The notes beneath the pieces are model-generated. The model was not told the DNA's origin. It did no database searches and was given only the letters and a program-made list of their open reading frames with translations. Below, in pieces: positions 34,218-60,630 of a stretch of DNA of 64,000 nt. The stretch comes from Dehalococcoidia bacterium (GTDB taxonomy: Bacteria; Chloroflexota; Dehalococcoidia; GIF9; AB-539-J10): NCBI GenBank assembly GCA_016930935.1, contig JAFGFT010000005.1, positions 1-64,000 of the forward strand, in the 5' to 3' direction. The translations under genes were made by a program, and so were the position numbers. Within the stretch, counting starts at the first letter, position 1. The number at the start of each line of letters is the position of its first letter.

Positions 34218-35879
34218 ATGAGAAGCGACATTACCAAAGTGGGGCCGGAGCATGCAGCTACGAGGGCGTTGCTCCACGCCGTCGGCGTTGACGATTATGA
34301 GATGGGGCTTCCGTTCGTAGGTGTGGCAAATAGCTTCAGTGAAATCGTACCCGGTCACGTGCACCTGAGGACTATTGCCGAGGCGGTGAAGGCAGGTATC
34401 CGGGAGGCAGGTGGCACCCCGTTCGAATTCAACACCATCGCAGCATGTGATGGTGTGGCGCAGGGTCATGGTGGGATGCGCTACATTCTTCCCACTCGAG
34501 AGGTTATTGCGGATTCAATCGAGCTTATGGCGGAGGCAAACCAGCTCGATGGCCTTGTGTTCATTCCAAATTGCGACAAGATTGTGCCGGGCATGCTGAT
34601 GGCCTGTGCCAGGGTCAATATTCCCTCCGTGTTTGTGAGTGGTGGTCCGATGCTGACGGGGCGGATGCCTGACAAATATGACGAGCAACTCGACGCGGCC
34701 TCGATGCTGGTGGCTCTGGGCGAACTGACCCGCGGAACACTGTCGGCCGAGCGCATGAAGGAGATGGAGCACTGCGTTGCTCCGGGATGTGGCAGTTGTT
34801 CCGGAATGTGGACGGCCAATACCATGAACTGCCTCACTGAGGCGATAGGTATGGGACTGCCGGGGAACGGCACGGTTCCGGCCGTGTTTGCCAATCGTAT
34901 CTGGCTTGCAAAACAGGCGGGACGACAGGCTGTGGAACTTATCCGCCGGAATGTGTTGCCGAGTGACATCATTACTGCTGCCTCTTTGCGCAACACGTTT
35001 GTGACGGACATGGCCATGGGTGGCAGCACCAACTCCGTGCTGCATCTGATGGCCATTGCCCATGAGGCGGGTTTGTCCTTTCCGATAGACGAACTCAACA
35101 AGATTCGGGCGGCGACTCCCCAGCTTACGAAGCTTGCCCCTGCCTCCAACTATCACCTTGAAGACTTCTATTACGCTGGTGGTATCCAGGCACTCATGTC
35201 CCGTATCGGGGACCTTCTCGATACGAGTGCCATGACCGTGAACTGCAAGACCGTTGCAGAGAATACGGCGGCGGCGAAAGTGTATAACGAAGACGTTATC
35301 CGCCCGCGCAGCAATCCCTACAGGGAGACGGGCGGACTCACGATTCTGTATGGCAACCTGGCGCCGGACAGCGCGGTTGTGAAGAGCGGAGCCGTACTGC
35401 CCGAGATGCTTGTGCACAGCGGCCCGGCACGAGTGTTCGATAGTGAGGAAGAGGCGGCAGAGTCTCTGGCGGGCCAGAACATCAAGCCCGGCGACGTGGT
35501 TGTCATCCGCTACGAAGGCCCGAAGGGTGGACCTGGAATGAGGGAGATGCTTGACTGCACCTCACTTCTCAAGGGCCTTGGCCTGGACAAGAGTGTTGCA
35601 CTTGTGACCGATGGGCGCTTCTCAGGAGCGACGAGCGGGGCGTCGATAGGGCATGTGTCTCCCGAGGCTGCGGAGGGTGGTCCGTTGGCGGCTGTGAGGG
35701 AAGGCGACATCATCAGTATCGATATACCGAATTGTCGACTCGAGGTCGCGTTGAGCGAAGAGGAAATCAAGAGCCGACTCGCAGAAGTGCCGGCCTTCAA
35801 GCCTCGTGTGCAGAAGGGATACCTTCTCCGCTACGCGCAGCGTGTTTCCTCCGCCAGCAAAGGCGCCATCGTAGGCTGA
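34218..35879 (+). CDS. ilvD: Dihydroxy-acid dehydratase
   Basis: [109 protein letters not shown]. Confidence 0.95.
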
Positions 35880-35956: not shown

Positions 35957-36277
35957 CTAGCGTTCTTCTCGTTGGAAGGAGACGGCAACGTCCCTGGGCA
36001 GGGCCACACCGACCGCGACCTCAATCGCCTTGGCCATTGCAGTGGGCCCCGGGCAGCCGGCGTGCTTGATGGTGCCGAACATGACGGCATGAACCGAATG
36101 TGGGTGTCCCGGCCTTAGCGCCTCGCGCCAGTCAGCCCCGTCCATCTGCTCGGCCGCCTCTCTTAGCATCTCACAATTGGTCTCCACGCTCACATGAAGC
36201 TGCGTTGCGCCATTCTTTGAGACGTTGATAGTGGCGCGCTGGCCACAGATTCCGCAATTTACGTTCACTACTGTCAT
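35957..36277 (-). CDS. Conserved-looking small Cys-containing protein at the 3' end of the corrinoid cluster
   Basis: MTVVNVNCGICGQRATINVSKNGATQLHVSVETNCEMLREAAEQMDG...IKHAGCPGPTAMAKAIEVAVGVALPRDV; 19 nt after the UROD gene. Confidence 0.65.
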   Translation of the reverse strand: MTVVNVNCGICGQRATINVSKNGATQLHVSVETNCEMLREAAEQMDGADWREALRPGHPHSVHAVMFGTIKHAGCPGPTAMAKAIEVAVGVALPRDVAVSFQREER

Positions 36278-36296
36278 CCTGTGCACTTCTTCCTTC

Positions 36297-37346
36297 TCAC
36301 AATTTGCCGAGTTCTCTTGCGGCCTTCACCATCGTGTAGAGGTTGAAAGGCGGTGTCTTTGGAGGAAAGCCACAACCTGACATGAGGACGTAGCCCCGCG
36401 GGGCGAGTCTCGCTTCCTCGATGTTTGCAGCGCAGGCGGCGTAAACCTTGTCGGGGTGTCCGTTCTGAATGATTGCAGGCTCCACGTTGCCGGCTATGAC
36501 GCTTGTCTCTCCAAATTTCTGTATCGCGGTCGTCAGCGAAACCTCGTGTCCGAAACTGAGCAGTCCGGGGTCTCCCATCGGAATCTGTGCCCAGAAGTCC
36601 AGGTTCAGATTCTGGTCTCCGCAGACATGCGTCACAATGTGCCCGATGCCCATCTTCAATACCGCCCTGTGGACCTCTATCGTGTAGGGGAGAACGAATT
36701 CCTCGAAGTGGCGTGCAGAGAGTACCTGGTTTGAGGCGGAAGGCTCGGCGTTGTAGAAGAGAATGTCTTTTCCAAAGGTATCCACCCAGAGTTGTGCCGT
36801 GTTGATGAGATACTGTGTGGCAAGTTCCATCAGGTGATGAGCGATGGGTGGTTTCTTTATCATCCATCGCGCCATCTTCTGTACGCTGCACAGGCTGGCG
36901 GCAGTGGTGAATGCACCATTCGTCGGTGTGATGACGGTTGCTCCTGCTGCCTTAGCAGTGCGCGAGTGAGCCAGTCCAATCGGTATTGCCCCCGCGGTAG
37001 CCAGATTGTCAGGCATCTTGAGTGCCATCACTTCTTCCTCGGTTGTTGCGGGGTAGCGGACCGCCATCGGCGCCTGCTGGAACTCTCCTTCGGGCATCCG
37101 TATCTCGCCGCCAAACTCTGACGTGCCGGATACGCCGTAGGCATAGTTGGGGTATCCATCATAGCCGTACTGTTCATGTGCCCACAGCTCCGCTTCGCAG
37201 CTCTTCTGCCCATCTGCGTACGCATCTGTGACTGTGCGACCGGCATTGAGTGAGGCGAATCCACGTGCCCCCAGGGGGAATACGGGAATCAGGTCCAGTT
37301 TCTCACCCTTGAGAAGTCGGCTTACGCGGTCATTGCCCATGCCCAT
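36297..37346 (-). CDS. UROD-fold (MtaA/CmuA-type) corrinoid methyltransferase, copy 1
   Basis: LLKGEKLDLIPVFPLGARGFA...GIGHIVTHVCGDQNLNLDFWAQIPMGDPGLLSFGHEVSLTTAI...MSGCGFPPKTPPFN; HxC...C zinc-ligand-like pattern. Confidence 0.82.
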   Translation of the reverse strand: MGMGNDRVSRLLKGEKLDLIPVFPLGARGFASLNAGRTVTDAYADGQKSCEAELWAHEQYGYDGYPNYAYGVSGTSEFGGEIRMPEGEFQQAPMAVRYPATTEEEVMALKMPDNLATAGAIPIGLAHSRTAKAAGATVITPTNGAFTTAASLCSVQKMARWMIKKPPIAHHLMELATQYLINTAQLWVDTFGKDILFYNAEPSASNQVLSARHFEEFVLPYTIEVHRAVLKMGIGHIVTHVCGDQNLNLDFWAQIPMGDPGLLSFGHEVSLTTAIQKFGETSVIAGNVEPAIIQNGHPDKVYAACAANIEEARLAPRGYVLMSGCGFPPKTPPFNLYTMVKAARELGKL

Positions 37347-37430
37347 GGTGATATTCCTCCACGCAGTAGTCGGCTACAGTGTACAGCGAACGGCTGGCAA
37401 GTTTGTGATGCCTGTTTTCGCTGGTTCGTC

Positions 37431-38477
37431 CTACTTGTAGTACCCGAAGTCCTCTATGGCTTTCTTCATCATGTAGACGTTGAACGGTGGCGCCATGGGT
37501 GGCAGTTCGCAGCCCGGCATAAGCATGAAACCGCGAGGGGCGTTCTTCGCCTCGAGGATGCAGTCCCTGCATGCCTCGTAGACTTCCTTGGGGGTACCCG
37601 TCTGGATGAGTGACGGGCGCACGTTGCCGAGGATGAGGCATGAGTCACCGAAATACTCTATCGCCGTGGTCAGCGTGACTTCGTGACCGAAGGTGACCAT
37701 GCCGGGGTCGCCCATGGGTATCTGTGCCCAGAGGGGCAAGTTTGCGTTCTGCTCCCCGCATATGTGGTAGAGGATGTGCTTGATGCCCATGGAGAGCATC
37801 TTCTCGTTGGTCTCCTTGATGTAGGGCAGCACGAACGTCTCGAACTGCTTCGGGGAGATGATGTTATTGGCGGCCATCGGTTCCCACAGGTTGGGAATGA
37901 CGTTCTCTGCGCCGAACGTGTCAGCCCAGAGGCGCGCGACGTCGAGCATGTGCTCGCTGGCGATGCGGAGCAGGTGGTGTGCGGCATCGGGCTTCTTGAG
38001 CATCCAGCGGCAGAGAAGGCTGGGTGGACAGATGTTGCCGGCAACGCTGAAATTGCCGCCCATGGTGACGGTGATGGGTTCCTCATGGTGCTGTTGCAGC
38101 TTCGAGAACTCCATCGCGAGCGGCAGAGAGCCTGCCGAGGTGACGTCGGGCATGGAGAGGGTATCAATGTCCTCTATGGCGTTGACGGGAAATCGAACGT
38201 GGGAAGGGGCCTGCTGCCACTCTCCCTCGGGCATCTTAATCTCACCGCCAAACTCCCAGCCGCCGTAGGAGGCGTACCCGTAATCGGGACCGCCGTCTAT
38301 GCCGTACTGTTCGAAGGTCCACTTCTGGGCCTGAAAGCTCTTCTGCGGGTTGTCATACATCTCAGCGGTGGTGTAGCCGACGTTCCTGGCGCAGAAGCCG
38401 AGCAGGAAGTGGTAGAGAGGGACACGGTCGACTTTCTCGCCGCGGAGAAGCGCTTCTACTCTGTGGCTGTTGCTCAT
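37431..38477 (-). CDS. UROD-fold (MtaA/CmuA-type) corrinoid methyltransferase, copy 2
   Basis: LLRGEKVDRVPLYHFLLGFCARNVGYT...GIKHILYHICGEQNANLPLWAQIPMGDPGMVTFGHEVTLTTAIEYF...MPGCELPPMAPPFN. Confidence 0.83.
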   Translation of the reverse strand: MSNSHRVEALLRGEKVDRVPLYHFLLGFCARNVGYTTAEMYDNPQKSFQAQKWTFEQYGIDGGPDYGYASYGGWEFGGEIKMPEGEWQQAPSHVRFPVNAIEDIDTLSMPDVTSAGSLPLAMEFSKLQQHHEEPITVTMGGNFSVAGNICPPSLLCRWMLKKPDAAHHLLRIASEHMLDVARLWADTFGAENVIPNLWEPMAANNIISPKQFETFVLPYIKETNEKMLSMGIKHILYHICGEQNANLPLWAQIPMGDPGMVTFGHEVTLTTAIEYFGDSCLILGNVRPSLIQTGTPKEVYEACRDCILEAKNAPRGFMLMPGCELPPMAPPFNVYMMKKAIEDFGYYK

Positions 38478-38488
38478 GGTGTCTTCTC

Positions 38489-39142
38489 CTATGCTGCCTG
38501 GAGCATCTTCTCGGCCTTGGCCACTGCCTCGCCGGCATTGTCGCCGTAGTCGTCGGCACCGTAGGACATGGCGATATCGAGGTTGAGAGGAGCGCCGCCG
38601 ACGAGGACATGGACGTTGGGGTCGGTGGCCCGCAGCATCTTGATAATCTTGGGCATGGCAAGCATGCTCGTAGTCATGAGCGCGGACAGCCCTACGACTT
38701 GTGCGCCGTTGATTTTCTGTTCTTCGGCGAAGCGCTCAATCTTGACGTCGGCTCCGAGGTCGATGACCTCCCAGCCTGCGGCGTCGAACATGACCTTGAT
38801 GAGGTTCTTGCCGATATCGTGGATATCCCCCTCAACGACGCCGAGCATAATCTTCTTGGTCTGCGCCGTCGTCTTCTTCGGAAGATGAGGTCGGAGGATG
38901 TCGAGTCCGGCGTAGAGGGCATCTGCGCAGAGGAGCAGTTCGGGAACGAAGTACTCCTGGCGTGCGTACAGGTCGCCGACGGTCTCCATGCCTTTGGCGA
39001 GTCCGCCCATGATGGCCTCAAAGGCATCGACGCCTTCTTCGACGGCGGCGTTGGCCATCTTGATGGCGTCGTCTTCTTCGTACTCAACGACGGCGTCGTG
39101 CAGCCCCTTCAGAATCTCTGCTGTTCTCTCGTTGCTTGCCAC
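38489..39142 (-). CDS. Corrinoid (B12)-binding methyltransferase protein (MtaC/MtbC-type)
   Basis: KKIMLGVVEGDIHDIGKNLIKVMFDAAGWEVIDLGADV (DxHxxG cobalamin motif), VVGLSALMTTSMLAMPKII, VLVGGAPLN; N-terminal helical cap. Confidence 0.93.
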   Translation of the reverse strand: MASNERTAEILKGLHDAVVEYEEDDAIKMANAAVEEGVDAFEAIMGGLAKGMETVGDLYARQEYFVPELLLCADALYAGLDILRPHLPKKTTAQTKKIMLGVVEGDIHDIGKNLIKVMFDAAGWEVIDLGADVKIERFAEEQKINGAQVVGLSALMTTSMLAMPKIIKMLRATDPNVHVLVGGAPLNLDIAMSYGADDYGDNAGEAVAKAEKMLQAA

Positions 39143-39167
39143 AGGTGTTCTCCTTGTGATGTGTTAT

Positions 39168-40214
39168 TCAATACCAGCCGTGGTCGTGCACGGCCTTAGT
39201 CATCTGGAAGACGTTGAATGGTGCGGACATTGGAGGCAGTTCGCAACCGGGTGAGAAGATGAAACCTGCAGGAACCTTCTTGCCTTCTTCGACTATGCGG
39301 GTTGTCTCTTCGTAGACTTGTTGGGGCGTGCCGGTCTGTATGAGTGCGGGGTTGATGTTGCCGAAGATAATGTCATCAGGGAAGTACTGAGCGGCGGTCG
39401 CAATTGCCACCTCGTGACCGATGCTGATGATGGAGGGGTGTGTGCACAGGTCGATTGTGGCGAGGTAAGGGAGGTTGAGGTTCTGCTCGCCACATATGTG
39501 AAGCCCGAAACCACGAATCGGGAACCGGTTCAATCGCTGGTGAAACTCGACGTGGTACGGGAGGGCGAATCTTTCAAATTGCTTGGGGGAGATGATCTGG
39601 TTGGATTCTGACGGAGAACTCATCCATACATACACGTTCTCTGCGCCGAAGGTCTCGACCCAGTACTGGAACACGTTGAAAGTGTGCTCGATGGCCATGC
39701 GCAGAAGGTGGTCACACAGATGAGGTTTCTTGAGCATCCACTTGCAGAATTGCTGCGTGCCACATATGTTTGCGGCCATGCAGAAAGCGGACCTGGGGAA
39801 GAATGTGGCGGGGAGACCATGCTGTCTCTGGAGCCGGGAGAATTCCAGGGCGGCGGGTATGCCTCCAGCGGACCTCGGGTCGGGCATCTGAAGGCTGAGT
39901 ACTTCTTCCTCGGTTGTGGCCGGGAAGCGGCTTATGGAAAGGGCGCCCTGGTACTCGCTTTCAGGGAACTTGACGTCGCCGCCAAAGTCCCAGCCCCCCA
40001 GGATTGTATGGCCGAACATCTGGGGAATAAGTTCCCAGTCGTACTGCTCCGCCGTCCAGAGGCTTGCATTGAATGCTTTCTCAGGGTCGTTGTAGGCGCT
40101 GGCAATTGTGAAGCCGCAATTGCGGTTGCTGAAGCCGGTGCTGTTTCCGTGGATGGGAACTCTGTCGACCTTCTCTCCGCGGAAGAGCGCCTCGATTCTG
40201 TCGTTGTATCCCAT
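39168..40214 (-). CDS. UROD-fold (MtaA/CmuA-type) corrinoid methyltransferase, copy 3
   Basis: MGYNDRIEALFRGEKVDRVPIHGNSTGFSNRNCGFT...FGLHICGEQNLNLPYLATIDLCTHPSIISIGHEVAIATAAQYF...SPGCELPPMSAPFN. Confidence 0.82.
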   Translation of the reverse strand: MGYNDRIEALFRGEKVDRVPIHGNSTGFSNRNCGFTIASAYNDPEKAFNASLWTAEQYDWELIPQMFGHTILGGWDFGGDVKFPESEYQGALSISRFPATTEEEVLSLQMPDPRSAGGIPAALEFSRLQRQHGLPATFFPRSAFCMAANICGTQQFCKWMLKKPHLCDHLLRMAIEHTFNVFQYWVETFGAENVYVWMSSPSESNQIISPKQFERFALPYHVEFHQRLNRFPIRGFGLHICGEQNLNLPYLATIDLCTHPSIISIGHEVAIATAAQYFPDDIIFGNINPALIQTGTPQQVYEETTRIVEEGKKVPAGFIFSPGCELPPMSAPFNVFQMTKAVHDHGWY

Positions 40215-40296
40215 GAAATGGACCCTCTCTTTACAAATGCACGGCGACTCCGACATGGGGATGTCCCATGCCGGAGTCGTTCTGGCGAATTGTTGT

Positions 40297-41091
40297 TCAG
40301 GCGATGCCGTAAGCCCTTCTGGGGTTATCCCACAGCACCTTCTCTATGTCAGCCTCGGTCATGCCCAGGCGTTTCATCTCAAGAGCCGTCTTTGGCACTG
40401 CGAGGCTGTCCGATTCCGGTATGCCCGAGTCGCTGTCGACAAGGATAAGGTCCATGTTTCCTGCCTTGACCATCTGGGCGGCCTCAGGAGCGCGCACCTT
40501 GCGGAACGGCTGTATGGTGATGCCTGCCCAGCAGCCTGCATCTGTAATCATCTTGACGCACGTTTCATTGGCGTGGTCGATGACGACTTTGGCAGGATTG
40601 ACTTTGTGCTCGGCGATGATGCCGAGGTATCGGTCGACCCACTTGGGTTTATCAGTGAGGGGAGTATGAATGTCGATAGTCTTGTCTGCATCGCGGGCGA
40701 TGTCCATCTGTGCTCGGAGTATCTTCTCCTGCACCGCGAGGTCTGAGCAGGTTGCCGAGTTTGGCTCAAAGCCCACCTCGCCAAGGCCGATGATGTCCGG
40801 TCTCTTTACGAACTCGGGCAGACGTGCGAGTGCAACTTCATAGTCGACGGGCACGCCGACCATGGAGACGCAGGTGCAAACGTACACATCGATGTAGTAC
40901 TTGGCGGCCCTCCACGCGTGGAAGCTGACCATCCTCTCAGCAAAGTCGAAAATCGACTGCGAGGGAATGTCCTTGTAGACCTCCGGCTCGGAGGTGTGAG
41001 CAATGACTGCTTTGACGTTGGAAAGCGCCATCACCTCAAGGTCGCGCTGGTTCAGTGCGGGGATGTGAACGTGGCAATCCATCAATTTCAT
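40297..41091 (-). CDS. TatD-like metal-dependent hydrolase
   Basis: DCHVHI; IGLGEVGFEPNS; IDIHTPL; VVIDHANE; LILVDSDSG (metal-ligand positions of the TatD/amidohydrolase fold). Confidence 0.75.
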   Translation of the reverse strand: MKLMDCHVHIPALNQRDLEVMALSNVKAVIAHTSEPEVYKDIPSQSIFDFAERMVSFHAWRAAKYYIDVYVCTCVSMVGVPVDYEVALARLPEFVKRPDIIGLGEVGFEPNSATCSDLAVQEKILRAQMDIARDADKTIDIHTPLTDKPKWVDRYLGIIAEHKVNPAKVVIDHANETCVKMITDAGCWAGITIQPFRKVRAPEAAQMVKAGNMDLILVDSDSGIPESDSLAVPKTALEMKRLGMTEADIEKVLWDNPRRAYGIA

Positions 41092-41109
41092 TTCCAGACT
41101 CCTTTGTCT

Positions 41110-41526
41110 CTATGACCGTTTGGTGATTGTGACGACGCCGCTGTAACCGTCGACGGCTACAGTGTCGCCAGTATCTATCACTTGGGTTGGGTCCTGATTC
41201 AGTTCTGTGACTGCAGGTATGTGCATCACGGTTGTAGCGAGAGCTATCTGGGGATTTACTTCCTTGACCAAGATGGCCGCTGGCTGACAGCCCGCAACTC
41301 TGCACACGTGAGCTGCATGGGAAAAGGCAGAGGAACCTTTGCCTGTCGTGAATACCAACACCTTCCCCTTCACGTTCTGCCCTTTCAGGCTGTGCCCAAG
41401 TTCCGTGACGATCCCGGTCATGGGGTCAACGCCTCCGCACCAGGAGATGGCCTCAGTTGTGACGAGTGCTTCACCCTTGGCTTCGCCCGGAGCTACGGGG
41501 CGTCCCTGTAGTGCTATCGATTTCAT
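41110..41526 (-). CDS. Aconitase X small subunit (DUF126-type)
   Basis: LQGRPVAPGEAKGEALVTTEAISWCGGVDPMTGIVTELGHSLKGQNVKGKVLVFTTGKGSSAFSHAAHVCRVAGCQPAAILVKEVNPQIALATTVMHIPAV; overlaps the large subunit. Confidence 0.87.
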   Translation of the reverse strand: MKSIALQGRPVAPGEAKGEALVTTEAISWCGGVDPMTGIVTELGHSLKGQNVKGKVLVFTTGKGSSAFSHAAHVCRVAGCQPAAILVKEVNPQIALATTVMHIPAVTELNQDPTQVIDTGDTVAVDGYSGVVTITKRS

Positions 41527-42809
41527 CTCAGTTCACCTCTCCATTGGCCTGTGATGGCAGCGTCCACGCAATCCAGCATGCTGCCGTACCAGACGTTCTC
41601 GTAGCCTCGTAGACCAGTCATGTAGTAAGTAATCTTGGCAGCGTCAGTTGCCACAACGCTTGAAGTGGGGAAGTAGATGTTTATCGGGCAACTGTCCACG
41701 ACAATGTGTGCACCGGCTGCTTCAATTGCTTCTGCATATCCGCTTCTGGCGGCTACCGTCTCGATTGACCTGGCCGTATAGACAAGGAGGAGAGTATTCT
41801 CGTTGACCTTCTTTCCTTCTAGAAGGCGGGCAAGTTGAGCCATCTGGCGGATGGAATAGTGCGGGCATCCGATCGTTACAACATCCACGAGGTCTTTGCT
41901 GGAGTTGTTAAGCCGTTCGTAACACTCCCTCCGTTCGCGCGTACCGTACTGTATGGCTTGCTTGGGAGAAAGCCCTCCTGTGGCTTCCTCAAGAGAGTGT
42001 GCTTCCGGCGTCACTCCAACCATGTGGTACATCTCAATACCGCCGCAACTTGCACCAGTAGCGCACAAACCCTTAAGCATATCTGCATTGGGATGGTGTT
42101 TCCCGCATGGGTATATTGGAATTTCCGTGCCTATGGTTCTACCTACATGACAGCCCATGAGTTCGTAGTCCATCACGGTGTCGAGGCTTATCGCTTTCTC
42201 GTCCACCTGGACAAGTGTTGTTCCCCTGCGATTCTCCTTGAGGTGGAATCCCCATAGCGGAGTCTTGCCCGTCAGTGCGGACGAGAACGAGCTCTCGAGT
42301 CCCTCTATGTTTGTGCGGGCACCAAGTACTGCATTTGCGTAGGAAATCGCGGATGACTCTACCCATGCGACGTGTTCGCCGAACACAGGGGTGTTTCCGC
42401 ACTGGTATGGTGTACAGGTCCCCGTGACGCTGATACCGATTCGTTTGCAGTAGTGTTGCGTGGCTGCAATCAGGTCCTGCAGTATCTTCGGTGCTTTGAC
42501 TAGATCGGCGTGTCCATTTGCGAGGTCGATAGTGAAGAGATGGTTCGTTGTGAATGCTTTCACATTGTCCACCATGAGCTTCTCTTGGCTGTCCAGAAAA
42601 TACTCGCTTGCGATGGAATCTATATCTATCGGGTACTTGAACACGTCGGTATAGCTGAACAGCCCCGAGAGTATAAATACGTTATCCACATCCACGAACT
42701 CAGCAGCGCCAAGTGCGTCTCCATACTTGACCAGCAGTTCCATGGCTTTCTGGCGGACCAGTCCCTCTTTTCCGTCAAGCATCCTTAGTTCGTCAGTCTT
42801 CAGTTTCAC
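41523..42809 (-). CDS. Aconitase X large/catalytic subunit (DUF521-type)
   Basis: LTEE-like N-terminus MLDGKEGLVRQKAMELLVKYGDALGAAEFVDVDNVFI; GTCTPYQCGNTPVFGEHVAWVESSAISYANAVLGARTN; VDVVTIGCPHYSIRQM. Confidence 0.9.
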   Translation of the reverse strand: MKLKTDELRMLDGKEGLVRQKAMELLVKYGDALGAAEFVDVDNVFILSGLFSYTDVFKYPIDIDSIASEYFLDSQEKLMVDNVKAFTTNHLFTIDLANGHADLVKAPKILQDLIAATQHYCKRIGISVTGTCTPYQCGNTPVFGEHVAWVESSAISYANAVLGARTNIEGLESSFSSALTGKTPLWGFHLKENRRGTTLVQVDEKAISLDTVMDYELMGCHVGRTIGTEIPIYPCGKHHPNADMLKGLCATGASCGGIEMYHMVGVTPEAHSLEEATGGLSPKQAIQYGTRERRECYERLNNSSKDLVDVVTIGCPHYSIRQMAQLARLLEGKKVNENTLLLVYTARSIETVAARSGYAEAIEAAGAHIVVDSCPINIYFPTSSVVATDAAKITYYMTGLRGYENVWYGSMLDCVDAAITGQWRGELR

Positions 42810-42862
42810 GTTCTATGCTCCCTTCTCTTCCTGCGTGGCCATTTCTTCTTCGGGTGGTGGAG

Positions 42863-43264
42863 TCACAGTGCCGAGATACAATCCACAAACAGAAAGGGCT
42901 CCGTGCCTGCCCGTGGGCCAATCGTGTGTAGTTCATTTGATGGAATGAACACGCAGTCTCCTGCCCCCACTACGATCTTCTCGTGTTCGGTAATGATGAT
43001 TCCCTTTCCTTTGACAACGAAAATCTGATGCTCCCATGCATGCGCGTGCAACCCGTGGGGTAGTTCGTCGGAAGGTTCATCCTCAATGACCCGCATCGAG
43101 AAAGAGGCTCCATCCTCCTTCCCAAATATTCTTCGCATCGTGACTCCCTGGGACACTCTGCCGACTCCCGGAGCAGACTGCATTGGCTCAATGTCGCGAA
43201 AACTGATTGTTTTCATAAGGACTGACTCTCCGCGTATTGGTTTTCGTTGGAACATCATACGCAC
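42863..43264 (-). CDS. Cupin-domain protein
   Basis: ELPHGLHAHAWEHQIFVVKGKGIIITEHEKIVVGAGDCVFIPSNELHTIGPRAGTEPFLFVDCI. Confidence 0.85.
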   Translation of the reverse strand: MRMMFQRKPIRGESVLMKTISFRDIEPMQSAPGVGRVSQGVTMRRIFGKEDGASFSMRVIEDEPSDELPHGLHAHAWEHQIFVVKGKGIIITEHEKIVVGAGDCVFIPSNELHTIGPRAGTEPFLFVDCISAL

Positions 43265-43516
43265 ATACAGTCTCTTCTTGAGATTCGCTATTTAGTACTG
43301 GTGCTTGTGTTCGCTGCAACCCGGTCTCTCTTCTTGGTATCGGAATCGTCTAAGGTTGGTTTGTGGAAGCTCTGACCACTTCTAAAGAGCATATCGGCGC
43401 AAAAGCCTCTTTGGCATCTGAGCGAAGTGAGAAGTTCAACAACGGCATTCAATTGCACTAAGTGTGTCCTATTCCAATGCGCTTGTTGGTGCAGATTCTT
43501 CGACGTGATGCGAGGA

Positions 43517-44656
43517 CTATGACAAGATTGCTCGACCTATCACGAGCTTCTGGACTTCGCTCGTGCCCTCGTAGATTTCAAGGATTTTTGCGTCCCTGTA
43601 GAATCTCTCTATGGGCAGATCTTTCATGTAGCCATACCCTCCATGGATCTGAAGTGACTTCCTTGCGACATCCATTGCAGTGTTGGCTGCGAAGAGCTTG
43701 GCCTGTGCGACTTCCTTGCTAAACCTCTGGCCCTGGTCTGCCAGTCTGGCGGCTCGATAGGCGAGAAGCCACGCGGCGTCTACCTGGGTCGCCATGTCAA
43801 CCAGCATCCACTGGATACCTTGGAACTCACAGATTGGCTGTCCAAACTGCTGTCGCTCCTTGGAATAGGCCACCGCGGCGTCAAGAGCGGCTGATGCCAG
43901 ACCCACGCCTTGTCCAGCCACGTCCAGTCTGCCTTCGTCGAGGATAGAAAGGGCTATCCTCATTCCCTTTCCGACTTCTCCGATCTGGTTTTCCATCGGA
44001 ACATGCACATCATCGAACATGAGCTCTGCCGCACTCTCCGCCCTTATACCAAGTTTGTCCTCAATTTTGCCGACCGAGAATCCTGGCGTGCCCTTCTCCA
44101 CAACGAAAGCCGTTATGCCCTTGTTACCGAGTTGTTTGTCAACCGTCGCAAACAGAAGAACCATGTCGGCTCGGTCTCCATTAGAGATGAAACACTTGGC
44201 ACCGTTGATAATCCACTCGTCACCCTCCCTGCGCGCCGTCGTTGTCATTCGTGAGATGTCGCTGCTTGCGTCATGTTCGGTGAGAGCATAGGAGCACAGT
44301 CTCTCTCCCTTCGCTGCAGGAACGACGAACCTTCGTCTCTGGTCCTCGTTGCCATAGCGGTACAAGCCGCCAAGTGCCAGCCCCATATGTGTGCCGACTA
44401 TCGAGGCGACGGAGACGCTCGCGCGCGCCAGTTCAATCGAAGCAATCAGTGCGTCCATGAGGGACCCTCCCTGTCCACCGTACTCCTCAGGTACGGTGAG
44501 ACCGGTGAGGCCGACAGATGCAACCTTCTGGAATGCCTCATAGGCGAGCTCATTTCGTCTGTCCCATTCATCTGCGCACGGTGCGATTTCCGCCTGAACG
44601 AAATCTCTAAGTTGACGCTGCAGCATTCTTTCCGGCTCAGTAAGAAGTATGTCCAT
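43517..44656 (-). CDS. Acyl-CoA dehydrogenase
   Basis: CSYALTEHDASSDISRM; KQFGQPICEFQ-like SKERQQFGQPICEFQGIQ; QIHGGYGYMKDLPIERFYRDAKILEIYEGTSEVQKLVIGR with catalytic-Glu IYEGTSE. AAGGAGA upstream of chosen ATG. Confidence 0.93.
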   Translation of the reverse strand: MDILLTEPERMLQRQLRDFVQAEIAPCADEWDRRNELAYEAFQKVASVGLTGLTVPEEYGGQGGSLMDALIASIELARASVSVASIVGTHMGLALGGLYRYGNEDQRRRFVVPAAKGERLCSYALTEHDASSDISRMTTTARREGDEWIINGAKCFISNGDRADMVLLFATVDKQLGNKGITAFVVEKGTPGFSVGKIEDKLGIRAESAAELMFDDVHVPMENQIGEVGKGMRIALSILDEGRLDVAGQGVGLASAALDAAVAYSKERQQFGQPICEFQGIQWMLVDMATQVDAAWLLAYRAARLADQGQRFSKEVAQAKLFAANTAMDVARKSLQIHGGYGYMKDLPIERFYRDAKILEIYEGTSEVQKLVIGRAILS

Positions 44657-44769
44657 GTTCCAGTTCTCCTTCATGATAGGTGATTTCCTATTGATGCGTT
44701 CTAGGCGAGAACGGACCCCTATCGGATGTTCGTTCCCGCCATACAAACGGGGTTATGATGAGAGGTATC

Positions 44770-45897
44770 TCAGGATATTCCTTCAGCCACCTTGACTTCA
44801 TTCACGAGCCGCTCATACATGTTCTGTCCCGGGAAATACTTCTCCAGGAGGTCTGAGTACAACTCGTCGTATATTTCAAAAGGCTGCACCCTATCGATGA
44901 ACACCTTTCTTTGGTCAGGAGTGAGGTGAGTGAATTCACATCCTTCCGCACTTAGTTTCTCTTCAATCACACTGGCTTGAGCGCGATAGCGAAACCGGCA
45001 GTTCGCTTCCAGAGTCTTCGCGCATTCCTTGAGGGTTTCCTGGAGATATCCCGGTAATGAGTCGTAGAGGTCGAGGTTCATAATGATGTCATCGCGGTTG
45101 TACATCTGGTTCACGTCCGTGTAGTAGTGGCAGACCTCATAGTGCTTCTCGCTCATGTAGGAACCGATGTACGTGCAGGTCGCATCGATGACGCCTCGTT
45201 CGAGTGAGGTGTAGATTTCACTCCACGGGATTGCTTCGCCGAGGGAATCGGGACACATTTTCGTGAAGGTCTTGACGTATACGTCGCTAGTGGGCACTCT
45301 GACTTTGAGCCTGGAGAAGTCATCGGGCGTGACCAATGGATGAGCATCTGTCGCATAGGCCATCCATCCGTTTTCGGTAGTGGCAAGAGACTTGCATCCT
45401 GTCAGTTCCCATCCGTGATCAAGGATGACGTCGAGTACGCCGCCGTTGTAGAAGAGCTTGTCTGCGGACTCAGGGGTGGCTCCCGCAAATGGCAGTCCCT
45501 TCACATTGAGAATCTCATGGTAGGTGCTGTACGGACTGGAGAAGCCCATGGCAAGATCTCCGGTTGTGACGGCGTCGAAAGTCTCCTCCTGATCCCCAAG
45601 CATGCCAGCGCCATAGAACTTGACATTCATCCGGCCATCGGTGGCACCATATATCATGTTGCAGAAGTGCTCGATGGGTATGTAGCGCGGGTCGCTCGAA
45701 GTCATGTGTGCCGCGCACGAAAGATCATATTCAGGCGTGACCATACCACTGTCACCAGCCTGCTGCTGAACTTGGGCTTCGCTAGAGGAGCCACTGTCCT
45801 GCGTTGGGGCACAGCCGATGGAAGTTGCCACCAGCACCAATAGAAGAGTCATGCATGTCCACATCGTTACAGGTCGCACGTTTCCTACCTCCTTCAC
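44770..45897 (-). CDS. TRAP transporter solute-binding protein (DctP family), orphan copy
   Basis: Lipoprotein leader (SIGCAPTQ); FKVRVPTSDVYVKTFTKMCPDSLGEAIPWSEIYTSLERGVIDATCTY; paralog of the protein at 50836-51933. Confidence 0.88.
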   Translation of the reverse strand: MKEVGNVRPVTMWTCMTLLLVLVATSIGCAPTQDSGSSSEAQVQQQAGDSGMVTPEYDLSCAAHMTSSDPRYIPIEHFCNMIYGATDGRMNVKFYGAGMLGDQEETFDAVTTGDLAMGFSSPYSTYHEILNVKGLPFAGATPESADKLFYNGGVLDVILDHGWELTGCKSLATTENGWMAYATDAHPLVTPDDFSRLKVRVPTSDVYVKTFTKMCPDSLGEAIPWSEIYTSLERGVIDATCTYIGSYMSEKHYEVCHYYTDVNQMYNRDDIIMNLDLYDSLPGYLQETLKECAKTLEANCRFRYRAQASVIEEKLSAEGCEFTHLTPDQRKVFIDRVQPFEIYDELYSDLLEKYFPGQNMYERLVNEVKVAEGIS

Positions 45898-46172: not shown

Positions 46173-47885
46173 CTATGGTTCGTAAGCGGTTTCCTTTAGA
46201 ATCGGCAACTCAACCGTAAGAGTGGCTCCGCTTCGCGCATTGTTGGCTGCGCGAATCTTGCCCTCGTGTTCTGAGACGATGCTGTGGCATATGGTCAATC
46301 CCAATCCTGTGCCTTGTCCAATCTCTCGAGTTGTGAAGAACGGATCGAATATTCGGTCCATGTGCTCCGGCAGGATTCCGGGGCCATCATCCTCAAATGT
46401 CACGACAACATTGTCTTCGTCGCAAGTAGTGGCAATTCGCAGGTGCCCTCTGCCATTGGATAGGCGTATCTCTGTCTCCGCATTCGCCAGAATGTTGCGG
46501 AAACACTGCTCAAGCTGCGATTCGTTGCCAAGAATTGTCTGAGGTGCGAGGTCCAGGTCAGTCGTGATCTGAATGGCCCCATCGGACGTTGGAAGATGTT
46601 GCCTCCGCAAGGCTGATTCTACTACCATGTTCACCGAGACGGGTTCTCTTGCCGGACTTGTCCATCTTGCGGACGCCAACAGTTGTTGCACGATTCCGGC
46701 CACCCGCTGGCCGGCCTCCAGAATTCCTTTGGCGTACTCGCGACAGTCCTCCGTGAGGTCTTGCTTCAGCAGCAAGTCTGCGAACCCGATGATTCCCGTC
46801 ACAGGGTTGTTGATTTCATGTGCTACACCTGCTGCCATTCTACCTACTGATGCGAGGCGCTGTGACTGTTGTGCTCGTCTTTCGGCCTCACATCGCGCTT
46901 TCTGGGCTTGCTTCTCCTGAGTCATATCCATGAACGATGTCAGAATGAACTCACTGCATGGAATAAGTGTCGAAGTCTTCAATACCGGAATGATTGCGCC
47001 ATTGGCGGCGACCAGTCGTGCCTCATATTGATGGGGTACGCTAGGGTCACCGGAGAGACGTCTGTTTCTCACCTTCTGCATCTTCAAGACGTCCTCTGCT
47101 GGGAAGAGCGCTTCCCAGCCAAGTGTGCCTTCAATATCCTCGCGCTTGTAGCCCAGCACGTTCTCAAACTGTCGGTTCACTAGAGCTACCAACCCGTGGT
47201 TGTCGGTGACGCAGATCATTGTGCCGGTGTTGTCAAATATCGTTCTGTAGAGATCAGGCAACGGAATACCTGCCTCCCGCACTCGATTGTGGCCGCTAAT
47301 CTCGTCCAGTTTAAGAGCTAGAGCGGTGGCCAGCTTCTGAAGCGTCGTTGATTCCACAGGGGTGGGGTGCTCTCCGGAAAGCGGTTCAATTGACAATATG
47401 CCATGGACAGTATGCTGAGTGGCCAAACGGATTGTGAGCCGTGTTGTCTCGCAGTGGCCATTTGCTACAGGACAGGACTGGAGTATCGCTTTGCGCCATT
47501 GCAGGGCGACGAGTGTGTTCATCTGCAGTGCTTGCTGTACACAAGGCAACACCTGTAGGGAGGAGGACTCGTCTGAGTCAGAAAACAGAGGAGTTGACTC
47601 TTGACAATTGAAGGGGTTGGTTTCGTTTCGAGGTGGCGTCAGTAGCTGCCATTGAATCTCCTTGTAGATACCTGAATTGGTAATAGTCTCACAGACGTCT
47701 TGCAGAAGTTGCTGTGGACTATCTGTTGGTCGAGTGTTGCAAACCATCGCAACTGTTGACTCCAGAATTCGAAGTCGGTCTTGCAGATGATTGGGTGGGC
47801 TACTGTGCATCAATGCTGGCACATCAGTTGGAGACAATATTGGTGTGATTGTCTGAGTGTCTTCTCTGTCGGCTCTGATCTTCAA
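46173..47885 (-). CDS. PAS-containing sensor histidine kinase
   Basis: PAS segment FDNTGTMICVTDNHGLVALVNRQFENVLGYKREDIEG; VGRMAAGVAHEINNPVTGIIGFADLLL; FEDDGPGILPEHMDRIFDPFFTTREIGQGTGLGLTICHSIVSEHEG. Confidence 0.9.
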   Translation of the reverse strand: MKIRADREDTQTITPILSPTDVPALMHSSPPNHLQDRLRILESTVAMVCNTRPTDSPQQLLQDVCETITNSGIYKEIQWQLLTPPRNETNPFNCQESTPLFSDSDESSSLQVLPCVQQALQMNTLVALQWRKAILQSCPVANGHCETTRLTIRLATQHTVHGILSIEPLSGEHPTPVESTTLQKLATALALKLDEISGHNRVREAGIPLPDLYRTIFDNTGTMICVTDNHGLVALVNRQFENVLGYKREDIEGTLGWEALFPAEDVLKMQKVRNRRLSGDPSVPHQYEARLVAANGAIIPVLKTSTLIPCSEFILTSFMDMTQEKQAQKARCEAERRAQQSQRLASVGRMAAGVAHEINNPVTGIIGFADLLLKQDLTEDCREYAKGILEAGQRVAGIVQQLLASARWTSPAREPVSVNMVVESALRRQHLPTSDGAIQITTDLDLAPQTILGNESQLEQCFRNILANAETEIRLSNGRGHLRIATTCDEDNVVVTFEDDGPGILPEHMDRIFDPFFTTREIGQGTGLGLTICHSIVSEHEGKIRAANNARSGATLTVELPILKETAYEP

Positions 47886-47942: not shown

Positions 47943-48710
47943 TCATGCGGCTTGTGGGGACGCTTGGACATCTGCCTCAACTGGTTCTTTCCTAAACAGG
48001 TACCCAATGCCGTGGACCGTGATAATGAATCGAGGGTTGTGTGGTTCTGGTTCAATCTTTCCGCGGAGTCGGTTCACAAATACATGAAGGTACTCCTTGG
48101 AATGAGAGTGGCTTGAACCCCAGACGCGATTCAGTAGGCGCGAATGGGTCAGCACTTTGTCAGGATTATCCAAGAACTCTTCAAGCAACGCGTATTCTGT
48201 CGGCGTGAGATGCGAAGAGATACTATCCATGGAGTGTATCGTCTGGGTTGCTAGATCCACTGATAGATTCCCGAGGCTCTTTCGAGGTTCAATCGGAGCG
48301 TCGACGCCGGCTCGGACTCGCCTAAGCACCGATGACATGCGTGCGGTAAGTTCCTCTAGTGAAAAGGGCTTCACAAGATAGTCATCCGCACCAAGGCGCA
48401 ATGCCTTCACCTTGTCACAGGGCTCGTTGCAGACGCTGAGGACTATAATAGGTGTGTGAGTTCTCTCCCTCAGGAGTCGACATACCTCGAAGCCGTTGAG
48501 CGATGGCATCATCAAGTCGAGAATCACCAAGTCAGGGCGTTCTGTTTCCTGGAGAGCCAGCGCTTCGAGTCCGTTTCGGGCGACAACAGTTGCCCATCCT
48601 GCGGAACGAAGACTGGCCTGCAAGTATCTGGTAATAATATCGTCGTCATCGACAACCAATACCAGAAAACGTCTCGATGGGTTTGTCATGGCCTCTTCGC
48701 TAGACGACAT
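47943..48710 (-). CDS. OmpR/PhoB-type response regulator
   Basis: VLVVDDDDIITRYLQASL...LVILDLMMPSLNGFEVCRLLRE...LRLGADDYLVKPFSLEELTARM; C-terminal winged helix HLTPTEYALLEEFLDNPDKVLTHSRLLNRVWG. Confidence 0.92.
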   Translation of the reverse strand: MSSSEEAMTNPSRRFLVLVVDDDDIITRYLQASLRSAGWATVVARNGLEALALQETERPDLVILDLMMPSLNGFEVCRLLRERTHTPIIVLSVCNEPCDKVKALRLGADDYLVKPFSLEELTARMSSVLRRVRAGVDAPIEPRKSLGNLSVDLATQTIHSMDSISSHLTPTEYALLEEFLDNPDKVLTHSRLLNRVWGSSHSHSKEYLHVFVNRLRGKIEPEPHNPRFIITVHGIGYLFRKEPVEADVQASPQAA

Positions 48711-48896
48711 ACTTCTATACCATGGCGTGGCGCGTGTCAATACACAGGATGCATTCGAGTCCTCATTCCAACCTGAGTCTCATCTAGAACAACGATTCAT
48801 TGGCCTTGTACCGCAGCTTTTGCAAGCATGTCTGGTATTCGTGACAATTAGTGGCATGTCGGTCCTTCTCCTTCTGACCGGCATGCCACTATTGCC

Positions 48897-50243
48897 CTAT
48901 GGTAATCCCACGATCTTCTCTCCAACTAGGAGAGTGGGAAGCCACAACGAAAGCTGCGGGATGTAGGTGGTGAGTAGGAGAACCGGTATGGCTCCGAGTG
49001 CGATGAATAGAAGTGCAGGTTTTATCAGTCTGTGGAGTTGAACGTTTGATACTCGTGCTCCGAGGAACAGAGTTGCTGCAAACGGTGGTGTGACCATGCC
49101 GATTCCACAATTGAGAACAACCATGGCGCCAGCGTGGACGAGATTCATGCCGATTTGGTCGAACAGGGGGAGTAGGAGCGGCACCACAATTATTAGGATG
49201 CAGAGAGTCTCCATGAACATCCCGAGAAAGAGCAAGAGCAGGTTGATCATGATGAGAATCACGACGGGGTTGCTGGAGATACTGAGTACACCACTGGTCA
49301 ATGCTTCAGCCACTCCAACCTTGAGCATCACGCGGCTGAAGAACATGCCAGTGCCAACGAGGATGATAATCATTCCTGTGCTGCCTGCTGCCTCGAAGAT
49401 GAGACGAGGGAGATTGCCAACCTTCAGTCCCTTGTACACGAAGAGGCCGATTACCAGAGCATATATGCAGGACACTGCGGCTGCCTCGGTGGGAGTGAAG
49501 GCTCCAAGATAGATACCGCCGATGATGATGATTGGGAACAATAGGGCAGGGATAGCTGCCCATGTGTGCTGTGCAGTGGTGCGGGTGAATATGTTGGAGA
49601 ACTTCGTGACATCGCCAGTTATCTTTGCAGGAATCATCCAGTGTTTGACGGCGACGGCGTTGATAATGACGTATGCACCCGCAAGCAGGCAGCCCGGTAT
49701 GATGGTGCTTGCAAAGAGGGCTGCGATGGATTGGTCGGCGAGCAGGCCATACACGAGGAACGGGATACTTGGTGGTATCAGGTGCCCCATGAAGGCCGAG
49801 GCGCAGATTACTCCCGTGGAGTATTCTTTTCGGTATCCGTAGTCCTCCATCCTTGGTACCAATATAGGAGTGAGGGCTGCAACCGAGGTGAGACCGGAGC
49901 CAGTCAATGCCCCGAAGAAGAGACTCGACATGATAGCAACAGCAGGCAGTCCTCCTCGTATCCAGCCCACAAGGTCATTCACCCAACTTATGAGCTTCTC
50001 AGCGATGCCTCCCTCGGACATCAATGCGCCTGCCAGGAGGAAATAGGCCACAGCCATCAATACTTCGGTGTCGATAGCATGATAGACCACTCGTGGCATG
50101 CTTGCTACGTCGAGACCAAGGAGCAGGAAGGTTGCTGCGCCAGAAAAGACAAAGCACCACATCACCTCTAGACCGACCACCAGGAGGACAAAGAACAGAG
50201 AAATCCCGACAGCTACTTGCCATCCAAAAGCAATTTCAGTCAT
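48897..50243 (-). CDS. TRAP transporter large permease (DctM)
   Basis: GLTSVAALTPILVPRMEDYGYRKEYSTGVICASAFMGHLIPPSIPFLVYGLLADQSIAALF; start chosen so that ATGA overlaps the DctQ stop. Confidence 0.93.
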   Translation of the reverse strand: MTEIAFGWQVAVGISLFFVLLVVGLEVMWCFVFSGAATFLLLGLDVASMPRVVYHAIDTEVLMAVAYFLLAGALMSEGGIAEKLISWVNDLVGWIRGGLPAVAIMSSLFFGALTGSGLTSVAALTPILVPRMEDYGYRKEYSTGVICASAFMGHLIPPSIPFLVYGLLADQSIAALFASTIIPGCLLAGAYVIINAVAVKHWMIPAKITGDVTKFSNIFTRTTAQHTWAAIPALLFPIIIIGGIYLGAFTPTEAAAVSCIYALVIGLFVYKGLKVGNLPRLIFEAAGSTGMIIILVGTGMFFSRVMLKVGVAEALTSGVLSISSNPVVILIMINLLLLFLGMFMETLCILIIVVPLLLPLFDQIGMNLVHAGAMVVLNCGIGMVTPPFAATLFLGARVSNVQLHRLIKPALLFIALGAIPVLLLTTYIPQLSLWLPTLLVGEKIVGLP

Positions 50244-50770
50244 AGTCCGGGGCCTCCTGCCAGGGATGAATTGCGCAGCCGGGATATGCTGACAGCGAGA
50301 TCTCTGCCGATGTAGGCACAGAGCAAGACTCCCATGACAAATGGCAAGGTCTTGACCACTCCCAAGTTGAACCATGTGAGTATCACATCGTGTTGGTTGG
50401 ATGCCCACATTCTAATCATGAAATCAAAGCTTAGATACGTGAAGAAACATGCGCTAGTGAGGGCGATGCCGTGCAATATTGCTCGGAGAATGTCGTTTTC
50501 CCTCGAGTGAGTCTTACTCAACATGGAATCCAAAATCTCGACCCTCACGTGTATGCGCTGTCTGGCTGCGATGGCAGCACCGAAGAATATGAGAAACAGA
50601 TAGCTATAGTGTTGCACCGGGAAGATCCACCATGAGGGAATCTCCAGGACGTAGCGGAAAACGACGCCAAGAAAGGACATGAAAGCCGATATGCTGAACG
50701 CAACGACTGCCACTGCGAACTCGACCCGTCCAACCGTTGTAGCGAGTTTGTTGAAGTGTTCTGAAAGCAT
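50240..50770 (-). CDS. TRAP transporter small permease (DctQ)
   Basis: Four TM segments, VVFRYVLEIPSWWIFPVQHYSYLFLIFFGAAIAARQRIHVRVEIL. Confidence 0.88.
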   Translation of the reverse strand: MLSEHFNKLATTVGRVEFAVAVVAFSISAFMSFLGVVFRYVLEIPSWWIFPVQHYSYLFLIFFGAAIAARQRIHVRVEILDSMLSKTHSRENDILRAILHGIALTSACFFTYLSFDFMIRMWASNQHDVILTWFNLGVVKTLPFVMGVLLCAYIGRDLAVSISRLRNSSLAGGPGL

Positions 50771-50835: not shown

Positions 50836-51933
50836 CTATGCCACTCCTTCAGCTTCTTTCACTGCGTTCACGAGTTGCTCGTACATCTTTTCGCCAGGGT
50901 AGTACTCCTCCAACAAGTCCTTGTAGAGTTCCTCGTACAGTTGATACGGATTGACGTTGTCGATGAAGACCTGTCGCTGTTCTGGAGTGAGGAAAGTGAA
51001 CTGTGTTCCCGTTTCCTCGCACCTGGCCATAATCTCAAGATGTGACGCACGATTGGTGAATCGGCAATCTGCTTCCATTACGTCTGCTGCCTCAAGAACC
51101 ATGTCTCTAACGTCGTCAGGAAGCGATTCGTAGAGTTCCTTGTTAATCAGCAGGTTGTCCCAGTTGTACATCTGATTTATGTCGGTGTAGAACTTGGCGA
51201 CTTCGTTGAATTTGCTCGCTTCGTAGACGCTGATGTAGTTGACGGTGCCGTCAACTACGCCCCTTTCGAGCGAGGTGTAGGTTTCCGTCCACGGAATCGT
51301 CTCGCCGATTCCTTTAGGAGCCATCCGTTCAAATGTCTTCACGTATACGTCGCTTGGCGGGACGCGTATCTTGAGGCCATCGAAGTCGTCCGGAGTGAGA
51401 ATAGGTCGTACCTTGTTGATGTAAACCATGTGGGAATTCTCGATGTAGCCGAGACACTTCATGCCGCACAAGTCCCACGAGTGATCGATAATCTGTCTGA
51501 TGAGACCGTCACCGTAGAACAGAGTGTCAACAGCTTCCCACGTGCTACCAGCGAATGGCAATCCTTTCACATTCTGGAGTTCATGGAAGCCACTGTAGGG
51601 GCTGATGACGCCGATTTCCAGTTCCCCTGCCTGGACTGCATCGAAGTTTTCCTCGCTATCTCCCAGAGCGGCAGAACCGTAGTACTTCGCGTCAACGCGT
51701 CCGTCAGAAATGCCGTAGAGTACATCGCAAAAATGACGTATGGATCGGGAGCCAACCCCCGCCTCTCCCAAGAAGTTGCTTACTCTCCATTGATATTCAG
51801 CCTCGACGGTGGCGCCACCACCATCATCTCCGCTGCCTGCGGGGGCTGCAGTGCAGCCGCTGAGAATAGCAACGCCAGCCAGTGTGAGTGAGATAAAGAG
51901 CAATACCACTTTTTTCAAGTTGCGAACCTCCAT
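50836..51933 (-). CDS. TRAP transporter solute-binding protein (DctP family)
   Basis: Lipobox ILSGCTAAP; LKIRVPPSDVYVKTFERMAPKGIGETIPWTETYTSLERGVVDGTVNYISVY; upstream of DctQM. Confidence 0.9.
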   Translation of the reverse strand: MEVRNLKKVVLLFISLTLAGVAILSGCTAAPAGSGDDGGGATVEAEYQWRVSNFLGEAGVGSRSIRHFCDVLYGISDGRVDAKYYGSAALGDSEENFDAVQAGELEIGVISPYSGFHELQNVKGLPFAGSTWEAVDTLFYGDGLIRQIIDHSWDLCGMKCLGYIENSHMVYINKVRPILTPDDFDGLKIRVPPSDVYVKTFERMAPKGIGETIPWTETYTSLERGVVDGTVNYISVYEASKFNEVAKFYTDINQMYNWDNLLINKELYESLPDDVRDMVLEAADVMEADCRFTNRASHLEIMARCEETGTQFTFLTPEQRQVFIDNVNPYQLYEELYKDLLEEYYPGEKMYEQLVNAVKEAEGVA

Positions 51934-54840: not shown

Positions 54841-54867
54841 CGGCGTATAACGAATAGGAGAGATTTC

Positions 54868-56826: not shown

Positions 56827-56852
56827 AGTACTCATCGAATTGCCATGTAGAA

Positions 56853-56881
56853 AGGCCCCGATTCATCTCGAATCGGGGCCT
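56853..56881. terminator. Bidirectional terminator-like hairpin between convergent operons
   Basis: GGCCCCGATT (56854-56863)/AATCGGGGCC (56871-56880), loop CATCTCG, plus A-T closing pair. Confidence 0.7.
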
Positions 56882-56907
56882 CTCTCCTACCATCTGGCGG
56901 AATCGGA

Positions 56908-58095: not shown

Positions 58096-58132
58096 ATGTT
58101 TCTCCCTCTACCTGCGTGTTTCGTGACGCTCA

Positions 58133-59560: not shown

Positions 59561-59600
59561 TTGCGGCCTCCTGTGACAGGGCTAGTGAGAATGGCATTGG

Positions 59601-60602: not shown

Positions 60603-60630
60603 ATGCGTTCTTCCTCTTTGGTCGTTTGTC

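Follow-up and report, generated by a model that had tools for sequence, protein, structure and literature searches.

A candidate corrinoid demethylation core joined to a probably acquired aconitase X island in a Dehalococcoidia genome

The stretch of DNA analysed here, called the window below, runs from base 1 to base 64000 of contig C41 (71.8 kb), which belongs to a Dehalococcoidia bacterium whose draft genome (G000; 2.38 Mb) is 92% complete and 6% contaminated. On its minus strand, between positions 35,957 and 45,897, lies a gene series in which proteins of the uroporphyrinogen decarboxylase (UROD) superfamily and a corrinoid protein stand next to a two-subunit aconitase X (AcnX). An earlier note, made from the sequence alone, had listed eleven genes in this series and proposed that they form one undescribed pathway, in which a methylated compound is imported and demethylated and the product is dehydrated by AcnX. 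All eleven genes are present in the order listed, and chance origin of the gene calls is not an issue since their Pfam matches lie far over the cut-offs. The cluster is composite, being made of a conserved core and a probably acquired island. The explanation that we favour, with a probability of about two in three, is that a conserved demethylation core was joined to an acquired hydroxy-acid island, the two being coupled at most via one protein, UroD3.

A genus core and a block probably inserted beside MacB

The core module would consist of DUF6951 (PF22263; 35957-36286), UroD1 (36297-37346), UroD2 (37431-38477) and the corrinoid protein (38489-39142), all on the minus strand. Genes for the last three are found without AcnX, at the same chromosomal site, in two genomes of the same genus, G005 and G006. 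Orthologue identities reach 78-81% for the corrinoid protein, 85-86% for UroD2, 71-72% for UroD1 and 70-71% for a neighbouring MacB-like permease. UroD1 follows UroD2 in G006 and is carried by a separate contig in G005. In both relatives, the MacB and corrinoid genes are only ~0.3 kb apart, as compared to 22,486 bp in the window, where MacB (61629-62861, minus strand) forms the right border of the insertion. The interval contains the genes for UroD3, a TatD-like hydrolase, AcnX, a cupin, an acyl-CoA dehydrogenase, the solute-binding protein DctP, a two-component system and a tripartite ATP-independent periplasmic (TRAP) transporter, together with two EtfAB pairs, an old yellow enzyme (OYE)-type flavoenzyme and a GlcD/CCG pair. 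The GC content of the inserted genes is 0.505-0.584, most of them being under the core and the flanks (0.567-0.613). Both flanks have orthologues in relatives, so that the contig is unlikely to be a contaminant. The simpler reading is that the block was gained in the species of the window.

These observations lend no support to the idea of one conserved pathway including AcnX: in everything sampled the neighbourhood lacks conservation among relatives, an outcome that the earlier note had itself named as refuting. More generally, they are a warning that two modules brought together recently may look like one tidy operon.

The corrinoid core and its probable methyl acceptor

UroD3 is encoded at 39168-40256 (minus strand), beside the corrinoid gene. 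By Pfam, UroD1, UroD2 and UroD3 have the UROD fold (URO-D, 146-164 bits; 164 for UroD1 and 152 for UroD2). The His-Cys-Cys (HCC) zinc ligands of MtaA are kept in all three, as well as in nearly all aligned homologues of the class. Scores against NCBIfam TIGR01463 (116.5, 95.6 and 73.8 bits) are all under the cut-off of 235.4, and the curated cut-off of NF040654 is not reached either. For this reason, UroD1-3 are placed as a sister group to the MtaA/CmuA-type methyltransferases rather than as members. The AlphaFold model of UroD3 (pLDDT 88.8) has MtaA (PDB 4ay7) as its best PDB match in Foldseek (E 2.8e-16; TM 0.77-0.82), ahead of true uroporphyrinogen decarboxylases. Thus, the fold and the zinc site are common to the window proteins and to the soluble coenzyme M (CoM) methyltransferases MtaA/MtbA, but identity is ~21% and the methyl acceptor here is probably tetrahydrofolate (H4folate) rather than CoM.

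In a tree that contains no references for Mlp or the O-demethylases, each of UroD1 and UroD2 falls together with its orthologues from the genus; UroD3 forms a lone lineage, without an orthologue in the genus core, and is a candidate for the substrate-specific methyltransferase of the island. A plasmid scan with UroD3 returned only ~20-22% relatives, and viral contigs gave no match. Separately, at least seven paralogues of the same UROD clade are spread over several contigs of genome G650 (L104, L105, L106, L107), most of them with a proline-containing 'HPCG' zinc motif.

The corrinoid protein combines the B12-binding_2 and B12-binding domains (Pfam 96 and 72 bits) and carries the DxHxxG motif in 'GDIHDIG'; against TIGR02370 it scores 181 bits, under the cut-off of 215. 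Its setting in relatives is informative. In G016, a genome of the same family, an operon reads corrinoid protein, UroD2 (67%), DUF6951, RACo, AcsE-like, MinD-like and FTHFS; UroD2 orthologues in the operons of G013 and G016 show 65-67% identity. At locus L108 the order is corrinoid protein, UroD, DUF6951, RACo and MtrH, and L101 and L102 carry similar sets. Zinc site, fold and these operons, which unite a corrinoid protein, an activase and an H4folate methyltransferase, support the assignment of the UROD-like proteins to corrinoid methyl transfer. On this point the earlier note stands.

A corrinoid methyltransferase system comprises a methyltransferase I (MTI), a corrinoid protein, a methyltransferase II (MTII) and an activase. 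In the window genome, the corrinoid protein is in the cluster, and RACo and an AcsE-like protein are encoded elsewhere. In front of the single RACo gene, on contig C69, stand an MTTB-type set and a gene of the MetF kind, and behind it comes the gene for the AcsE-like methyl-H4folate methyltransferase; RACo and AcsE are 55% and 65% identical to the pair of the G016 operon. FTHFS was found in the window genome; a CdhC-type acetyl-CoA synthase was looked for there and not found. Methyl-H4folate would thus most likely be oxidised through the folate branch or spent on biosynthesis. Methyl transfer to H4folate is the best-supported function of the core, judging from the methyl-transfer operons of relatives, the RACo/AcsE pair and FTHFS without CdhC. 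It can be proposed that Co(I) of the corrinoid protein receives a methyl group which a UROD protein with the HCC zinc site has removed from a methylated donor, and that the AcsE-like enzyme hands this group on to H4folate. RACo would keep the cobalt reduced, with DUF6951 assisting activation. A UROD-type corrinoid demethylation core with an H4folate acceptor and an activase can thereby be recognised in the class Dehalococcoidia.

Two side observations concern the activase. The C69 locus is itself an MTTB-type demethylation cluster (L148, 3603-13971), with a corrinoid protein, three MTTB-family proteins, an acyl-CoA dehydrogenase, the MetF-like protein, RACo and the AcsE-like protein. At L102 (11273-14707) and L101 (13627-17142), a single protein of 1144-1171 aa unites RACo with a Fer4_20/pyridine-nucleotide oxidoreductase segment; its domains were identified directly in L102 and by similarity in L101. 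Such a protein may be an activase with its own NAD(P)H-dependent reductase.

DUF6951, the small cysteine protein that closes the series, has 109 residues (Pfam 76.4 bits; cut-off 27). In the alignment, C38, H75 and C78 are invariant; the first cysteine is mostly conserved and absent from one homologue. The AlphaFold model (pLDDT 85) retrieves IscU/SufU proteins at Foldseek ranks 1-29, all weak (E 4e-3 at best), and the Cys/Cys/His..Cys pattern resembles the ligand order of IscU. Intact copies in the sampled relatives usually lie beside RACo, either with UROD-type donors (L099, 6816-7127; L102, 10900-11214; L108, 2314-2658; L163, 8115-8441) or with an MTTB-type one (L155, 9218-9766). As an exception, the G013 copy, whose contig is short, is flanked by UROD genes; the copy of G561 is degenerate. 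Among the control genomes, only Methanosarcina acetivorans has the family, the 13 others giving no match. DUF6951 recalls RACo/AcsV activase systems by its position beside RACo, and its model, through weak matches, points to IscU/SufU scaffolds, but it has no match to the Pfam NifU_N/IscU families. It is probably an accessory of corrinoid activation, and we propose that it aids Fe-S supply or redox activation of RACo. A literature search found no mention of DUF6951. An unnamed family is thus tied to corrinoid activation, with an IscU-like model that is open to testing.

Aconitase X and a putative hydroxy-acid island

The large subunit of AcnX (41523-42809, minus strand; Pfam AcnX 352.6 bits) overlaps by 4 bp the gene of the small, swivel subunit (41110-41526, minus strand; AcnX_swivel_put 77 bits). 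It is the sole AcnX of its genome, and none was found in the other 40 nearest genomes, save weak partial matches. Relatives are 50% identical in G455, a genome of the same class, and 42-43% identical in Halalkalibacter, Burkholderia and Paroceanicella. A genome-wide scan, made with a single AcnX query and strict 8-residue patterns, yielded one full-length relative. In the tree, the window protein pairs with that of G455 (support 99/96), and the two are nested in a clade of five members (100/98) that is distinct from TkAcnX and AtAcnX.

The residue criteria for the characterised activities are known (PMC8184944). The Fe-S cysteines of TkAcnX (Cys110, Cys283 and Cys342) are matched by the TCTP, GCPH and DSC motifs of the window protein. 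The Glu, Ser, Lys and Tyr residues that bind the acid and the 3-hydroxyl group are kept, as is the catalytic serine motif 'GKGSS' of the small subunit, which has a cysteine at the Trp35/Leu27 substrate position. Against NF051439, AcnX scores 221.8 bits, under the cut-off of 700, with Cys at the Trp35 position and a different Asp203/Ile206 region. As for mevalonate-5-phosphate dehydratase, a histidine occupies the position of Asn79(L), as judged from an alignment with homologues that does not contain this stretch of TkAcnX, and the protein falls outside the TkAcnX clade. Thus, the window AcnX has two subunits like the characterised enzymes and keeps the Fe-S cysteines of TkAcnX and the carboxylate/3-hydroxyl residues, but the substrate landmarks of both activities are absent and the clade is separate and supported. 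This places the protein within types IIc-IIf, called uncharacterised (PMC8184944). Because the Fe-S and acid/3-hydroxyl residues are kept and the substrate landmarks are absent, it is probably an Fe-S dehydratase of a beta-hydroxy acid. The comparison with the cis-3-hydroxyproline and phosphomevalonate dehydratase clades that the earlier note had called for therefore leads to neither of them, and to an uncharacterised type-II subclass.

In Halalkalibacter and Paroceanicella, AcnX is accompanied by a flavin oxidoreductase and TRAP genes, with no UROD neighbours. In G455, a flavin oxidoreductase adjoins and DctP-like genes are nearby, with no HCC UROD neighbour. The in-depth survey bore on sampled genomes of one phylum, with plasmids and the sparse genome-wide scan in addition; all compared genomes are drafts, and the contigs of two key relatives stop near the cluster. 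Across the 41 nearest genomes, 399 phylum genomes and 396 class genomes, with the neighbourhoods examined, the pairing of AcnX with UROD is conserved in no relative, and on this sample AcnX was rejected as a conserved UROD partner. Moreover, no HCC UROD gene lies beside AcnX in ~25 other neighbourhoods, including ~20 from further Chloroflexota. Two candidates for a second case were rejected. On a Sporomusa termitida plasmid, the UROD gene belongs to a different operon at a distance of ~9 kb and does not encode HCC. In G455, the UROD gene is ~17 kb away and has no HxC motif, and the nearby B12 protein is mutase-like in our own reading of its sequence. The uncharacterised AcnX subclass nevertheless gains a genomic setting, that of organic-acid uptake by TRAP transporters, which can guide substrate screening.

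Between UroD3 and AcnX lies a metal-dependent hydrolase of the TatD/amidohydrolase superfamily (40297-41091; TatD_DNase 62.6 bits), which matches the uncharacterised AF_1765 in the PDB (3guw, E 4.5e-17). AcnX is preceded by a small cupin (42863-43264; Cupin_2 40.8 bits), an acyl-CoA dehydrogenase (43517-44746) and DctP (44770-45897). The closest model to the dehydrogenase is acryloyl-CoA reductase (477 bits, below the cut-off of 640). An acrylate/dimethylsulfoniopropionate (DMSP) idea suggested by this resemblance and by the cupin was abandoned, the cupin being matched by no DMSP-lyase model. The series, all on the minus strand, then extends upstream of what the note had claimed, with a PAS-histidine kinase (46173-47885), an OmpR-type response regulator (47943-48740) and a full TRAP transporter made of DctM (48897-50408), DctQ (50240-50770) and a second DctP (50836-51933). 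From AcnX through DUF6951, intergenic gaps of -4 to 84 bp make the stretch operon-like. The description of the series as unbroken thus holds for its colinearity and for this tight part; wider gaps occur between acyl-CoA dehydrogenase and cupin (252 bp) and between histidine kinase and DctP (275 bp), and the unit is longer, reaching 51,933. A scan for promoters and terminators found no more sites than in shuffled sequences.

Taken as a whole, the ~22-kb island would serve uptake and breakdown of a hydroxy-carboxylate under two-component control, with import through TRAP. The type II AcnX would dehydrate a beta-hydroxy acid by Fe-S chemistry, and the acyl-CoA dehydrogenase, flavin enzymes and electron transfer flavoprotein (ETF) would handle the electrons.

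Competing readings and neighbouring genes

This raises the question of how the two modules are related. A functional link between AcnX and the core through UroD3 is possible, although the link of the methyl-transfer core to AcnX is weak as a whole. UroD3, which belongs to the island and adjoins the corrinoid gene, would be the likeliest coupling point: perhaps with UroD1 and UroD2, it could transfer to the corrinoid protein the methyl group of an imported hydroxy acid, S- or O-methylated, or of a product of that acid. By the reasoning of PMC10418091, the HCC site speaks for a leaving group that is a thiol or a selenol.

Several points weigh against this two-module reading and the functions proposed above. 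The tight order from AcnX to DUF6951 favours a single functional unit. The GC content at third codon positions of UroD3 and TatD (0.71-0.73) is near that of the core, which blurs the start of the insertion, and the block may have been lost in G005 and G006 rather than gained in the window. The HCC site suggests a thiol or selenol, yet the rest of the cluster bears no sign of sulfur chemistry. In G580, DUF6951 has no corrinoid gene within a 12-kb contig. Finally, apart from plasmids and a single sparse scan across genomes, the survey was confined to a sample of one phylum.

Alternatively, the whole cluster could form one integrated pathway. TRAP would import a methylated hydroxy acid, UroD3, UroD1 and UroD2 would demethylate it stepwise or relay the methyl group, TatD would cleave an ester or lactone, AcnX would dehydrate the beta-hydroxy acid thus released, and the last steps would fall to the acyl-CoA dehydrogenase and ETF. 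The tight colinearity of the genes, UroD3 without an orthologue in the genus core and the 3-hydroxy-acid-binding residues of AcnX fit this scheme. The UroD/corrinoid core is, moreover, repeatedly next to organic-acid uptake genes: TRAP genes adjoin UroD/corrinoid genes in G013, and in G005 UroD1 is near another organic-acid module (L098, 49-10995) with TRAP DctP/DctM, an IclR regulator, a CoA-ligase pair, an HpcH/HpaI lyase and an Asp/Glu racemase. However, AcnX meets an HCC UROD in no other genome examined, the core stands alone in relatives, and the relatives of AcnX associate with TRAP and flavoenzymes without UroD. This scheme is therefore only a tentative alternative to the joining of two modules. 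A narrower version appears somewhat less likely again. It supposes an undescribed pathway in which UroD3 demethylates an imported methylated hydroxy acid onto the corrinoid protein, a new functional class of AcnX dehydrates the product, and the IscU-like DUF6951 serves corrinoid activation. As the earlier note had surmised, no characterised pathway seems to combine these families; a literature search found none joining AcnX with a corrinoid pathway.

It may also be asked whether the UROD proteins are aryl/alkyl O-demethylases (MtvB/OdmB/VdmB/MtoB-like) for methoxylated compounds imported by TRAP. They belong to the same superfamily, the O-demethylase and chloromethane systems (MtvB, OdmB, VdmB, MtoB, CdmB) share the logic of a UROD-type MTI, a corrinoid protein, an H4folate MTII and an activase (PMC13222342), and import of aromatics via TRAP has been proposed for marine Dehalococcoidia (PMC4959651). 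It should, however, be noted that O-demethylases replace one or both cysteines of the zinc site (PMC10418091), all kept in UroD1-3, that CdmB, a close O-demethylase relative, has no HCC motif at the aligned position, and that the window proteins form a separate branch, nearest to MtaA in sequence and fold. This makes the assignment improbable. Least probable of all is the view that the core belongs to the type 1 mlp gene clusters of methyl-selenium/methyl-sulfur salvage and has an unrelated catabolic island beside it: such clusters also have several HCC UROD paralogues, as the three here, and a corrinoid protein (Kountz and Balskus, PMC10418091), but the window cluster has no RACE, its activase and H4folate methyltransferase being elsewhere in the genome, has TRAP and AcnX nearby and is without sulfur or selenium genes, and the UroD2 clade in relatives sits with H4folate methyltransferases (AcsE, MtrH) that type 1 clusters lack (PMC10418091).

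Beyond the minus-strand series, the insertion includes, at 52955-61413, two EtfAB pairs. The first EtfAB-like pair is encoded with a FadH/OYE-type Fe-S flavoenzyme (52955-56826, plus strand). The second belongs to a putative 2-hydroxy-acid oxidation unit (56908-61413, minus strand), where it adjoins a GlcD-like FAD oxidase and a CCG protein (GlcF/TfrB-like); together these could possibly form an electron-confurcating 2-hydroxy-acid dehydrogenase. On the other side, an IlvD gene (34218-35879) converges on the cluster. In four same-genus genomes, its orthologues (78-80%) have TRAP or GlcD-like genes in their vicinity; in G001 and G003 they are accompanied by a LarA-type racemase, several GlcD-like oxidases and a UxaA/galactarate-dehydratase-like gene. 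From these neighbourhoods, the IlvD encoded beside the window cluster may be catabolic. In Paroceanicella, too, the AcnX operon (L114) has an IlvD gene next to it.

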